From positions 1,302,001 to 1,366,000 of the forward strand of contig CAJXKC010000001.1 in assembly GCA_913055685.1 (NCBI GenBank): DNA of 64,000 nt, in the 5' to 3' direction. Source of the stretch: an uncultured Flavobacteriales bacterium. Its GTDB lineage: Bacteria > Bacteroidota > Bacteroidia > Flavobacteriales > Schleiferiaceae. This document shows, piece by piece, positions 16,336-21,837 of this stretch (its first letter is position 1; the number at the start of each line of letters is the position of its first letter). The notes beneath the pieces were generated by a model. It was not told the DNA's origin. It made no database searches and saw only the letters and a list, made by a program, of their open reading frames with translations. A program made the translations under genes and the position numbers.

Positions 16336-16695
16336 ATGCATAATTTCAAAGAACTGAAGATTTGGCAAAAGACCATGGAGATAACCGAACAAGTATATAA
16401 AGTCACTAAAAGTTTCCCTAAGGATGAGATGTATGGCTTGAGTCATCAGCTTAGGAGAGCTGCGGTTTCCATCCCTTCCAATATATCGGAAGGAGCTGGT
16501 AGAGGTTCAAATCAAGATTTTAGTAGATTCTTGGATATAGCAAATGGCTCTATTAATGAGGTTGAGACCCAGATTATTCTGGCTCAACGTTTGGGATACA
16601 TCGCGGTAAAGGACTTTGTTGATCAGATTAGTAGCGACTTAGATTCGATTCAAAAAATGATTTACTCCTTCCAAAAAAGTCTTAACGCAAAATGA
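16336..16695 (+). CDS. Four-helix-bundle protein, 23S rRNA intervening-sequence (S23/IVP) family
   Basis: The 119-residue protein shows the family pattern clearly: MHNFKELKIWQKTMEITEQVYKVTKSFPKDEMYGLSHQLRRAAVSIPSNISEGAGRGS..., with the signature SIPSNISEGAGR and four predicted amphipathic helices. Relatives are encoded in 23S rRNA intervening sequences and as free-standing genes, and the Avd accessory protein of diversity-generating retroelements has the same fold. No reverse transcriptase is nearby. The gene is embedded between heptad-repeat DNA on both sides and interrupts a fad operon, so it looks like a passenger of the repeat island. The molecular role is unknown, perhaps nucleic-acid binding. 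Confidence 0.9.
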   Translation: MHNFKELKIWQKTMEITEQVYKVTKSFPKDEMYGLSHQLRRAAVSIPSNISEGAGRGSNQDFSRFLDIANGSINEVETQIILAQRLGYIAVKDFVDQISSDLDSIQKMIYSFQKSLNAK

Positions 16696-17999: not shown

Positions 18000-18066
18000 G
18001 ACCTTGCTGTCCCTTTTAAACTCTGCTTTACGTATTAGCTAATACAAGAATCAAAAACTTTATAAA

Positions 18067-19608
18067 ATGAAGAAATTAGTACTCGCCCTTTTGAGTTTTA
18101 TTAGCCTCAGTGCTTTTGCTCAGGGTACCCTCACCGTAACGGTTTCCGATAGTGGTACCGTAGCCCCTGGGGTGGCCGTATTTTATTACGACTCACCTTC
18201 GAGCTTTTATCCAAATGGTTACAACAATCCGCCGGTAATCGAGAATTTCGATTCCTATGCATTTACTAGCGGTAATGGCGTAGCTTCCTTTGGTCTCTGG
18301 AACGTGGCCAATAATGATACCGTATTTTGGGCCACCCAAGATTGTGCAGGCAATCTAATTTGGGGTGCCGGTTCTCCTACTGCCATGAACCCGAACCTTA
18401 GTGGGACCCTAAATTTAGGCTGTTTGCCCGGTGCTTGCGACGTTATTTTAACCGTGGACAGTGCAGCAACTCCAGCTGCAACCTATGGGGTGATTCAGGC
18501 ATTTCCTTTACGTCAGTTCTCCTACACGGGATTGCCTAGCAACATTCCTTCTTTTTGGACCCTAAATGGTGTGCCGAGTAGTGGTTTTACCAGTGCCGAT
18601 TACGACAGTATCACCTTCAATATGAACACTGTTTCTGCGCCCTACACGGTTACTTATGCTCGGGTAGACAGCTTCTGTGTGCCACGCACTGTTACTTTTG
18701 GAAATAATGGAGGCGGCGGAACTTCAGTTACTTGTAATTCTTATTTCACCACTACCGCACTTGGCCAAGATTCACTGGGCTATCGAGTGCTTATTGCAGA
18801 CTCCTCAAGCACTAATGGTACTATTATCGGCTATCGTTTAGATATGGGTGATGGTAATGTGCTCAACGCAACCGGAGTAATCACCAGTCATAATCACGCT
18901 TATGTTAATGCAGGTACTTATACTATTTGTCAAACTATTACCGCCGTATTGGGTAATGATACCTGCAGCTCTACCTATTGCGATACAGTTACCGTAGGTT
19001 CCGGATCTGGTGGTGGAGGTGGTGTTGGACCATCCTGCGCAGCTTCTTATGTGGTGGACACGGTAAACTCAGGTTTATTCAATAATCAGCTCATCATCTG
19101 GGAGACCTCCACCAGCAATGGTCAGATTACTGCTTGGTCTTGGGACTTCGGTGATGGTACTACTATCAACACCCGTTATCCAAGTCATACTTACGCCAAT
19201 ACCGGGGTTTACAATGTGTGTTTAACTATTACTGCTTTGGATAGTGCCGGTGCGACTTGTACCAGTACCTTCTGCGATTCAGTTGGATTTGATGCCAATG
19301 GTAATTTGGTCTTCAAAAATGGCTTTACCATTAATGTAGTTGATCCTGCTTCGGTAGGTGTAGACGAGCAATTGCTAAACGAAAGTTTGAGTGTATATCC
19401 TAACCCTAGTGCGGGCGATGTGAACCTTGAATGGGATCCTCGTTTGGAAGTGGAGAAACTGAGCGTATTTAGCATCAGCGGAAGCTTAATAAATGAAATT
19501 ACTAAGCCTAATCATCGCACTGAATTGAAAGGTCTAGAACCAGGTGCCTACTTAGTACGTATTCAATCTGCAACAGCGGCCAAAACCCTACGCCTAATTG
19601 TGCAATAA
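18067..19608 (+). CDS. PKD-domain secreted protein with T9SS sorting domain
   Basis: The protein has 513 residues, a signal peptide (MKKLVLALLSFISLSAFAQ) and an N-terminal Ig-like region (TLTVTVSDSGTVAPGVAVFYYD). Two PKD-type domains follow, with GYRLDMGDGNVL...HAYVNAGTYTICQTITA and AWSWDFGDGTTI...SHTYANTGVYNVCLTITA, each preceded by Gly-rich linkers (NNGGGGTS, GSGSGGGGGVG). The end is a type A sorting domain (LSVYPNPSAGDVNLEW ... GAYLVRIQSA). It is probably surface-exposed with paired cysteines in each PKD unit. Ligand unknown. It has terminators on both sides, so it is monocistronic. Confidence 0.87.
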   Translation: MKKLVLALLSFISLSAFAQGTLTVTVSDSGTVAPGVAVFYYDSPSSFYPNGYNNPPVIENFDSYAFTSGNGVASFGLWNVANNDTVFWATQDCAGNLIWGAGSPTAMNPNLSGTLNLGCLPGACDVILTVDSAATPAATYGVIQAFPLRQFSYTGLPSNIPSFWTLNGVPSSGFTSADYDSITFNMNTVSAPYTVTYARVDSFCVPRTVTFGNNGGGGTSVTCNSYFTTTALGQDSLGYRVLIADSSSTNGTIIGYRLDMGDGNVLNATGVITSHNHAYVNAGTYTICQTITAVLGNDTCSSTYCDTVTVGSGSGGGGGVGPSCAASYVVDTVNSGLFNNQLIIWETSTSNGQITAWSWDFGDGTTINTRYPSHTYANTGVYNVCLTITALDSAGATCTSTFCDSVGFDANGNLVFKNGFTINVVDPASVGVDEQLLNESLSVYPNPSAGDVNLEWDPRLEVEKLSVFSISGSLINEITKPNHRTELKGLEPGAYLVRIQSATAAKTLRLIVQ

Positions 19609-19624
19609 TCATCAATGATGCCTT

Positions 19625-19656
19625 AAGGAGGGCCCTGCTTTTGCGGGGCTTTCCTT
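19625..19656 (+). terminator. Probable terminator after the PKD protein
   Basis: AAGGAGGGCCC-TGCTTTTGC-GGGGCTTTCCTT forms a GC-rich hairpin, but the T-run after it is poor. It lies 12 nt before the sigma-factor gene. Confidence 0.5.
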
Positions 19657-19667
19657 ATCTTACATGA

Positions 19668-20237
19668 ATGGATAGGCGGCTCCAAAAATTGATCAGAAAA
19701 TGCCGGAAGCATGATCGACAAGCGCAGTTTGATTTATATCAGTATTGCTTCGATTATCTTCTGGCTATCTGCTTTCGGTATAGGAAGCAGCGCGAGGATG
19801 CCGTGTCTTTAGTGAATGATGCCTTTTTAAAGGTTTTATTAAACCTGGATCAATTTAAGGAGGATAAGGATTTTATGCCCTGGATTGCCAGTATAACGGT
19901 CCGCACCGCCATTGATGAATACCGCCGCGAGAAGAAATACCGCGAGCAAACCGAGTTTAAAGAAAGTGACCATGACTTCGAATCAGCTGAACTGAATAAG
20001 GAGCATTGGGCCTTGGTAGAACAAATGAATGGGGAAGAGGTAAAGGAGTTAATTCACGCCTTACCCGAACCCGAGCGAATGGTTTTTGTGCTCTATGAGT
20101 GGGAGGGCTATTTGCATAAGGAGATAGCTGAGAAACTGGCTTGCTCCGAACGGAGTTCCAAGCGCTATTTACACCGCGCTAAGGAATTATTGAAGAAAGA
20201 ACTGACCCATAAGCAAGCTTTAAAGAAAGTGATCTAA
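19668..20237 (+). CDS. ECF-type RNA polymerase sigma factor
   Basis: The 189-residue protein contains a sigma-2 region (DRQAQFDLYQYCFDYLLAICFRYRKQREDAVSLVNDAFLKVLLNLDQF; the second helix matches the core-binding surface) and a sigma-4 region (LIHALPEPERMVFVLYEWEGYLHKEIAEKLACSERSSKRYLHRAKELLKKEL, HTH). It recruits RNA polymerase to an unknown extracytoplasmic-stress regulon. The stop codon shares one base with the start of the next gene (TAATG), so its partner is translationally coupled. No Cys/His zinc-finger anti-sigma domain gene lies near; the next gene appears to take that role. Confidence 0.92.
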   Translation: MDRRLQKLIRKCRKHDRQAQFDLYQYCFDYLLAICFRYRKQREDAVSLVNDAFLKVLLNLDQFKEDKDFMPWIASITVRTAIDEYRREKKYREQTEFKESDHDFESAELNKEHWALVEQMNGEEVKELIHALPEPERMVFVLYEWEGYLHKEIAEKLACSERSSKRYLHRAKELLKKELTHKQALKKVI

Positions 20238-21766
20238 TGGCAAGAGATTGGAAAAATATTAAGGATAAGCTGCAGGCCGATGGCCAAGGACCCAGTGCGG
20301 CCGACTGGGAAGCGATGCAGGCAAAAATTGCCGCGCAGCCGAGTTTAAATCCGCCGGCCAAAAGGCCTTTGTGGTTAAGCTGGGCGATAGCGGGAGCTTT
20401 AGGTGTTTTATTAGGTTGGAGTACCTGGTATTTCATGCCCTTGGGTCAAGAGCAAGAGGAGCTCACAGTTAAGCCTGAAACTAAAGCCACGGAAAAACCG
20501 GCCGAAAGCGTGGATTTGAACCAGGATTTGAATCAGGAAATGAAGAATGGCAATGCAGAGTCAGAACTTAAGTTGAAGGAAAATGCCGAAAAGCTAGCAG
20601 CTGACACTAAGCCCTCTAGTTCTACGGAACTGAAAGAAGTTAAGAGTGCTTCGAGTAAATCAGTGCCAGCGCCACTGGCTAAATCAGAGCAATCAAGGAG
20701 AGAAGAAGCTTTGGCTAGTGATGAGTCCGCTGGAAGCACCGCGCCTCTGCCTTTAAATCAAAAGTCATCGCAAGGGGAAAGGCCCTCGACCGATGGGAAG
20801 GAAGAGCAATTACCCGCTGAAAACAACAATCTGCCTAAGCCTAGCCTAGATCAGAAACCTGGGCAGGAAGCTGCATTGTCTGCGCCCCAAGCTTCGGAGG
20901 AAGTAAGCTCCGAAACCCCAAGCGAGAATAAGGCGGGGCAGATTCCCCCTAGTGTACCGGCATTAGAAGATGAGGCATCGGAAAAGGACCCTGCCGAAAC
21001 ATCCGAGCCTAAAGTAGATGGTAATGAGGCCGGTGAGGCTAAACTTCCTGCGGCGGAGGAGGATTTTGTGAATCGCAATACCGGTTTCCGTCTAGCTCAG
21101 GCTAACCTGAGTCTATCCTATTTACATGACTTTAATCGCCCCGCGACTTATGCTCCCGGTCTTAATTTCGATTTGGAGTGGCAGAAAGGAGCACAGTTTT
21201 TAAGCGCTGGTTTGGCTTACCATCAATTAAATCTCGCTCAGGAGAAAATGGTGAGTTTAAGTAGTATTAGTATTGATAGTTCCTACCGACAAGAAATCGC
21301 ATCACGAGAAGTGATTGAAGTACGCCGTAATTGGGTGATTGATTCGATGTTCCACGGGCATTACGTTTACGATACTATCCGACGGACCGTCGTGGATACC
21401 AACTTTATTTTAGAAATCGATACAAACCAATACCGCAGCAATTTCGTAAGACAGTCAGTGAAGCGTTTTTATTACGCCGAACTACCGATAATGTATGGTT
21501 ATCGTTGGCGACTGGATCGAATAAACATTGCCCTAGCTGGAGGTATTGCCCTCCAACAAGCAGTGGCTTACCAGGATGAAACGAGCAATGCAGTCTCCCA
21601 ATTTGGGATGTCGGCATTGTTGCAGCCTCAGATTGCATGGAGTGTCTCGGAGCGCTGGTCGCTCTTAGGAAGAGTGCAAATGCGATACCCTTTACAAGAG
21701 TCGGTTTTATTTGAAGATAAGACCTTACGATACTCTTTCCAGCTGGGTGTATCCTTCCACTGGTAA
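20237..21766 (+). CDS. Putative transenvelope anti-sigma factor with C-terminal beta-barrel-like domain
   Basis: The 509-residue protein starts with about 44 cytoplasmic residues (DWKNIKDKLQADGQGPSAADWEAMQAKI), then one membrane helix (LWLSWAIAGALGVLLGWSTWYF, about 45-66). A roughly 215-residue disordered linker follows, rich in Glu, Ser, Lys, Pro and Ala. The last 225 or so residues have alternating beta-strand pattern and aromatic ends (FRLAQANLSLSYLHDF, FLSAGLAYHQLNL, YYAELPIMYGYRW, INIALAGGIALQQ, LRYSFQLGVSFHW), like an outer-membrane barrel with a terminal aromatic. Coupling to the ECF sigma gene suggests a regulator spanning both membranes. No cleavage site or zinc motif is evident. The barrel call is moderately confident; the anti-sigma call is inference. 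Confidence 0.72.
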   Translation: MARDWKNIKDKLQADGQGPSAADWEAMQAKIAAQPSLNPPAKRPLWLSWAIAGALGVLLGWSTWYFMPLGQEQEELTVKPETKATEKPAESVDLNQDLNQEMKNGNAESELKLKENAEKLAADTKPSSSTELKEVKSASSKSVPAPLAKSEQSRREEALASDESAGSTAPLPLNQKSSQGERPSTDGKEEQLPAENNNLPKPSLDQKPGQEAALSAPQASEEVSSETPSENKAGQIPPSVPALEDEASEKDPAETSEPKVDGNEAGEAKLPAAEEDFVNRNTGFRLAQANLSLSYLHDFNRPATYAPGLNFDLEWQKGAQFLSAGLAYHQLNLAQEKMVSLSSISIDSSYRQEIASREVIEVRRNWVIDSMFHGHYVYDTIRRTVVDTNFILEIDTNQYRSNFVRQSVKRFYYAELPIMYGYRWRLDRINIALAGGIALQQAVAYQDETSNAVSQFGMSALLQPQIAWSVSERWSLLGRVQMRYPLQESVLFEDKTLRYSFQLGVSFHW

Positions 21767-21801
21767 GATCTGTAGATTACAAAAAGGATACTCTGCAATG
21801 G

Positions 21802-21837
21802 AGGCGCTCTTTGAAAAAAGGGCGCCTTTATTTTTTA
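21802..21837 (+). terminator. Rho-independent terminator after the sigma operon
   Basis: AGGCGCTCTTT faces AAAGGGCGCCT; the stem is followed by TTATTTTTT. Confidence 0.75.

Follow-up and report, generated by a model that had tools for sequence, protein, structure and literature searches.

Dual membrane-spanning anti-sigma (Dma) proteins, as the accessible parts of a Dma2 paper of 2026 set out, have been described for Bacteroides and Phocaeicola and are reported solely from Bacteroidota; they are composed, in this order, of a sigma-binding domain, a transmembrane (TM) helix, a disordered tether and a barrel, and they adjoin a sigma factor of the ECF21 group (PMC13088901, which cites a 2024 PNAS paper for the class). 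An anti-sigma factor of this kind had already been noted in Phocaeicola vulgatus in 2022, in a paper that refers back to a pair published in 2013 from B. fragilis (PMC9308784, accessible sections). Dma-type proteins have been studied in gut Bacteroides and Phocaeicola, where the direct signals are, according to the same portions of these two papers, not known.

Several described systems bear a partial resemblance to the locus presented here. Dma1/Das1 and Dma2/Das2 of B. thetaiotaomicron have the four-part layout and the adjacent ECF sigma factor in common with it, and differ in that at our locus a type IX secretion system (T9SS) gene with a predicted promoter of its own precedes the sigma gene; this likeness is drawn from the published description (PMC13088901, in part), since the sequences that we compared come from other Bacteroidales pairs and not from B. 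thetaiotaomicron. EcfO/Reo and the P. vulgatus pair likewise include a predicted periplasm-crossing anti-sigma factor with an outer-membrane barrel, and the effects published for them concern NigD and LPS-related genes, with no T9SS gene linked to them in the sections available (PMC9308784, PMC13114119). In the PorA-PorXY-SigP system of Porphyromonas gingivalis a T9SS CTD protein is also tied to an ECF sigma factor; that system, however, involves a two-component system, and no barrel-fused anti-sigma factor is described in the accessible part of the source (PMC7712824). Finally, the SM6 promoters of Flavobacterium psychrophilum resemble our locus in their CGT box at -10 and in involving T9SS genes together with a pair of ECF sigma and anti-sigma factors, but they serve T9SS machinery genes genome-wide rather than one adjacent cargo gene, and their sigma factor is left unsettled in the sections available (PMC9723704).

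Here we analyse a sigma/partner pair in a 64-kb stretch of DNA (the window) from an uncultured Flavobacteriales bacterium. A preliminary description had put the pair forward as the best candidate in the window for an undescribed signalling design, a reading that is ruled out by the published Dma class: the same four-part architecture beside an ECF sigma factor is on record under this name (PMC13088901) and from P. vulgatus (PMC9308784), as far as the accessible parts of both papers go. From its sequence and predicted structure we file the window pair as Dma-type, with membership of the ECF21 group and sigma binding both putative. The less expected part of the locus, and the one that is new relative to the described Dma pairs, is the upstream T9SS gene with its predicted promoter; no link between T9SS and Dma proteins was found in the open-access literature searched. 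The features of the locus are collected in Table 1.

Table 1. Features of the sigma/partner locus, with positions counted from the first nucleotide of the window.
Feature	Position	Strand	Basis
Predicted ECF-type promoter, TGTCCC-N17-CGTATTA	18008..18037	+	Sole TGTCMC-N17-CGTANTA match in the genome
Secreted protein with two stretches of PKD type and, at the C-terminus, a Por_Secre_tail (type IX secretion) domain	18067..19608	+	Pfam PKD_4 8.8e-23, Por_Secre_tail 8.7e-10
Predicted RNA hairpin between T9SS and sigma genes, 15 bp	19624..19657	+	19600-19680 folds at -32.5 kcal/mol (z -3.95)
ECF sigma factor of 189 aa with regions 2 and 4	19668..20237	+	Pfam Sigma70_r2 1.9e-10, Sigma70_r4_2 2.2e-15 (both above cut-off)
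Dma-type partner, putative anti-sigma factor	20237..21766	+	509 aa ORF
Two-helix putative sigma-binding domain, presumed cytoplasmic, residues 1-34	20237..20338	+	W5, W24 and M27 invariant in 17 partners
Predicted transmembrane helix, residues 45-65	20369..20431	+	AlphaFold2
Predicted disordered tether, residues 67-283	20435..21085	+	pLDDT below 50 for 67-272
Predicted 8-stranded OMP_b-brl_2-type barrel, residues 284-509	21086..21763	+	AlphaFold2, structural neighbours
Conserved turn of the long barrel strand 3/4 hairpin, residues 360-380	21314..21376	+	W366 and G374 invariant in 17 partners
Terminator-like stem-loop 3' of the partner gene	21797..21832	+	Consensus match only

The sigma factor and the anatomy of its partner

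The ECF sigma factor and the coupled partner ORF of the preliminary description are both present, the 3' end of the former overlapping the 5' end of the latter by one base. The partner gave no match of its own in Pfam (E <= 0.5) or NCBIfam (E <= 1), and a sequence search of the PDB likewise returned nothing at E <= 1. PF13568 (OMP_b-brl_2) does match 13 of the 17 aligned members of the partner family at E <= 1 (best 5.5e-7), the window partner not being among them. A search with the partner covered 88 genomes belonging to its taxonomic family and matched 16 of them, the own genome (2.96 Mb) included; the other 72 had no match at E <= 0.001. The comparison set obtained in this way consists of 16 homologous loci drawn from the remaining 15 matching genomes, which together with the window provide 17 aligned partners. 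In all 16 homologous loci the sigma gene lies directly 5' of the partner gene, and the pairing exceeds chance. A second full-length copy was sought in the own genome, where the window locus is the sole match and the other sigma/partner pairs are distant.

AlphaFold2 was run on the 17-row alignment of partners (overall mean pLDDT 62.3, pTM 0.39), and the model agrees with the succession of parts that had been read from the sequence of the window partner. A short N-terminus, presumed to be cytoplasmic, is predicted to form helices at residues 2-13 and 21-33 (pLDDT 53-78 over residues 1-40, taken in blocks of ten) and is followed by a single predicted helix of inner-membrane type. The disordered linker, previously put at about 215 residues, measures 217 in the window partner and from 162 to 281 across the 17 homologues, and its composition is rich in E, A, S, P and K. 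For the C-terminal region, for which an eight-stranded barrel had been expected, eight strands are predicted between residues 285 and 508 (pLDDT 63-96 for the blocks from 281 onward); the nearest structure to the modelled barrel is NspA (Z 17.3, rmsd 2.8 over 153 residues), and OmpA (Z 16.9) and OmpW (Z 16.2-16.3) are further neighbours. To judge from the model, the C-terminus has the OmpA/NspA-type 8-stranded barrel fold. Prediction and conservation together support a single polypeptide, encoded beside an ECF sigma factor, that combines a helix of inner-membrane type with a long disordered tether and a barrel of outer-membrane type.

Selection appears to fall on the two ends of the partner: mean pairwise identity among the 17 partners amounts to 0.42 for residues 1-34, 0.15 for the linker, 0.30 for the barrel and 0.44 for residues 360-380 within it. 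These last residues form the turn between barrel strands 3 and 4, which are 49 and 53 residues long in the model. In line with the preliminary description, no FecR domain is matched in the partner in Pfam at E <= 0.5. ZAS anti-sigma factors carry a His/Cys zinc motif in their cytoplasmic part; residues 1-44 of the partner contain neither Cys nor His and hence no zinc motif of the ZAS type.

Relation to Bacteroidales pairs and to other sigma/partner pairs

For comparison with Bacteroides-type pairs, 80 loci of named genomes were taken among the matches listed and 33 of these were chosen for inspection. In all 33 the sigma gene is followed by an ORF of 349 aa or more, with a TM-like stretch (by our own threshold) in 32, and 22 of the inspected partners, mostly from Bacteroides, Phocaeicola and Mediterranea, were aligned. 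In hhalign comparisons, for which E-values are single-pair and not database-wide, the window family matches this alignment over 105 columns at the end of the barrel (96.4%, E 1.3e-9), and the sigma factor matches three Bacteroides-like sigma factors (99.8%), the first of which is at most 70% identical to named Bacteroides sigma factors. The N-terminus, represented by 16 of the 17 family members, matches the Bacteroidales N-terminus at 80.5%, a short match of 26 columns in register; the N-terminal domain belongs to no named family. These comparisons support homology to the Bacteroides/Phocaeicola pairs for the sigma factor and the barrel and, more weakly, for the N-terminus. In addition, the AlphaFold2 model from the Bacteroidales alignment has the same layout and the same structural neighbours of the barrel as that of the window partner. 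The same predicted layout is found in the homologue from P. vulgatus ATCC 8482, which may not be the gene of the published pair; its model differs from that of the window partner in the strand 3/4 hairpin (19 and 24 residues versus 49 and 53, the strands being taken as equivalent).

Not all partners of sigma factors at the class level match a barrel family: PF13568 is matched in 25/50 and PF13505 in 14/50 at E <= 0.01, the two sets possibly overlapping. At L156:2758-3990, L161:1542-2780 and L168:1533-2816 a similar-looking N-terminus of a sigma-linked partner is followed not by a barrel but by PKD-like repeats and, at the C-terminus, by a CHU_C (T9SS type B) domain (the CHU_C score at L168 lies below the Pfam cut-off); such sequences hint at anti-sigma factors held by the secretion system itself. 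A PorP/SprF identity of the gene upstream at L161 and L168 was considered and dropped, the gene at L161 being DUF3078. By eye, the N-termini of the partners at L129:1549-2970 and L132:1182-2558 (both in the own genome), L142:1565-3232 and L301:1281-2726 resemble two to four putative sigma-binding units in tandem. A single polypeptide of 547 aa at L174:403-2046 unites regions 2 and 4 of an ECF sigma factor with a TM-like stretch, a linker and a barrel of the OMP_b-brl_2 family, and resembles Dma3 of B. thetaiotaomicron as presented in the accessible part of PMC13088901. Close to the C-terminus, the short, barrel-less partners at L157 and L167 share a motif resembling FGDxIDPxxGF. In another sigma/partner pair, present at L290, L294, L295, L301 and, in the own genome, at L129, the C-termini of the upstream ORF are alike in 5/5 cases (e.g. 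VMRFIELTNFDMKLK), and this ORF is perhaps a second conserved neighbour.

The upstream T9SS gene, its predicted promoter and the intergenic hairpin

A homologue of the T9SS gene is situated directly upstream of the sigma gene in 16/16 family loci (BLASTP E <= 1e-4), its product being 31-33% identical to that of the window in L035, L037 and L038 and more similar in the remaining loci. This adjacency holds in L032, L034, L036 and L038 despite other neighbours differing, and in L024, L026 and L029 the gene occurs as two or three tandem copies. Beyond this set, a Por_Secre_tail ORF precedes the sigma gene in 14 of 50 loci, from 48 genomes, at the class level (37 of which have a usable upstream ORF), in 8 of 20 further loci from searches of the family and the order, and in 3 of the 11 sigma genes of the own genome that exceed the Pfam cut-off (those of the window, L130 and L134); the own genome has 84 Por_Secre_tail matches altogether, 80 of them above the cut-off. 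At L284 the sigma/partner pair is kept with no T9SS gene upstream. Linkage to a T9SS gene is not confined to barrel-bearing partners, because L130 and L134 combine a T9SS neighbour with a short partner that lacks a barrel.

Further upstream in the window, a 23S rRNA-intervening-sequence protein (PF05635, 1.2e-40) is encoded at 16336-16695 between fatty-acid oxidation genes, and a homologue occupies the same place in 6/16 family loci.

The DNA 5' of the T9SS gene, read in 17 loci, contains TGTC(A/C)C-N17-CGTA in most of them. The fuller pattern TGTCMC-N17-CGTANTA has a single match in the 2.96-Mb own genome, as against none for the reversed control. Across the seven genomes of the genus that the genome-wide search covered, it is present in six, at nine places (reversed pattern: 0), two of which are apparently one locus repeated at contig ends, while one (G018:C22) is located elsewhere. 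If up to two mismatches are allowed, the own genome yields 11 matches and the control 12; fewer than two mismatches are found only at the T9SS site, and no site has exactly one. With up to one mismatch, the 64-kb window by itself gives one site against a chance mean of 0.97; since this count is at chance level, the case for the promoter stands on the genome-wide and cross-locus results. The core TGTC-N19-CGTA is found close to where the T9SS gene begins in 20 of the 25 T9SS-linked loci of the family (with exact spacing in 15/17 loci of the first look and 5/8 checked afterwards; the exact core is missing from L035, L037, L283, L286, which has a 16-nt spacer, and L288), and 22 of the 23 such sites in the DNA of these loci lie at these T9SS gene starts. 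As all 25 loci are related members of one taxonomic family, these counts are not independent and their nominal probability is not to be taken literally. No core occurs within 300 bp of the sigma gene in 29 Bacteroides-type loci, and only 1 of 79 other loci (class-level and further ones, the former comprising 1 kb of upstream DNA) has it within 400 bp.

The T9SS and sigma genes are separated by a stretch that folds with z < -2 in 16/17 loci (the exception being L035), compared with 3/60 random 80-mers. The sequences of these hairpins are unconserved by eye, and most are devoid of a strong T tract. It is possible that the hairpin is an attenuator, a partial terminator or a processing site, and that it determines how much cargo is made relative to sigma factor.

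A candidate circuit and its alternatives

From sequence and model together we consider it probable that the partner is a Dma-type anti-sigma factor whose sigma factor mainly drives its own operon, with the first product going to the cell surface. The sigma factor would be held at the inner membrane by the two-helix N-terminal domain, with the disordered tether spanning the periplasm and the barrel placed in the outer membrane; an event in the outer membrane or at the cell surface would release the sigma factor. Once released, it would transcribe chiefly its own operon from 18008-18037, with the gene for the type IX-secreted PKD protein first and, beyond a hairpin likely to reduce read-through, those for the sigma factor and its partner. 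As the sigma factor and its inhibitor would both belong to their own operon, the response would be self-amplifying as well as self-limiting. Sigma binding, insertion of the barrel, recognition of the promoter at 18008-18037 by the window sigma factor and the direction of the response are inferred.

What the barrel would respond to allows more than one reading. It may act as a sentinel of outer-membrane assembly, whose failed insertion would leave the periplasmic part degraded or unfolded and the sigma factor free, and thus be an envelope-stress switch instead of a surface receptor. This appears somewhat unlikely to us, although the barrel is small, with eight strands, and work on P. vulgatus lends the idea substance: according to the accessible sections of PMC9308784, a toxin that induces the regulon of a similar pair also induces many genes known to answer to a peptide that inhibits BamA, and its authors suggest that envelope stress is the likely signal. 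The long, conserved strand 3/4 hairpin with its invariant W366/G374 turn is, however, not obviously needed by a mere assembly sensor, and the only strong target predicted is an operon for a single secreted protein, not envelope repair genes. Alternatively, the T9SS protein of the operon could itself be the ligand, its surface display being read by the turn of the barrel hairpin, in which case the operon would gauge type IX export. The retained adjacency and the dedicated promoter are in line with such a role, as are the action of PorA, a T9SS CTD protein, on the SigP pathway in P. gingivalis (PMC7712824, accessible part) and the matches of the partner C-terminus to T9SS type B (CHU_C) in 3/50 class-level partners, one of them below the Pfam cut-off. 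We nevertheless regard it as unlikely: the promoter before the T9SS gene alone accounts for the adjacency, so that the protein may be a mere target, and the hairpin-turn motif is absent from most distant T9SS-linked partners. A loose regular expression for this motif, applied after removal of six rows, matched 20/41 T9SS-linked versus 4/49 other partners, the 20 belonging mostly to one family and some being clearly spurious. The long barrel hairpin as a hallmark of T9SS linkage is accordingly not established, the motif count being confounded by kinship and the strand-distance measure being noisy. The most far-reaching form of the idea, a closed surface loop in which the secreted protein would meet the hairpin at W366/G374 and one polypeptide would signal across both membranes to a sigma factor with this very operon as its one strong predicted target, the operon serving as a dedicated monitor of type IX export or of the surface structure built by it, we put forward as quite doubtful.

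Other alternatives concern the continuity of the polypeptide and the identity of the sigma factor. If the linker were cleaved, or if the barrel never reached the outer membrane, no continuous polypeptide would join the two membranes and the N-terminal part would be an ordinary membrane anti-sigma factor. Related short partners that lack a barrel do exist (L157 and L167, and in the own genome L130 and L134; 171-253 aa) and the linker is unconserved, but the barrel is retained in 17/17 aligned members with twice the mean identity of the linker, and we judge such a separation very unlikely. We are similarly disinclined to believe that another ECF sigma factor of the genome serves the promoter at 18008-18037, the neighbouring one being coincidental. 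The genome does offer candidates, with 11 sigma region-4 matches above the Pfam cut-off and partners of similar layout at L129 (PF13568 2.1e-8), L131 (2e-4, below the cut-off) and L132 (by look only); yet the promoter site is unique in the genome, and it accompanies the set of T9SS, sigma and partner genes where other neighbours differ.

The favoured reading, a Dma-type pair acting mainly on its own operon, would tie the Dma class to the type IX secretion system by way of a predicted operon. The predicted circuit consists of one promoter and three genes, the first of which encodes a product with a type IX export tail, and it recurs in the taxonomic family. It may therefore provide a small and testable system in which an outer-membrane barrel possibly reports to a cytoplasmic sigma factor.
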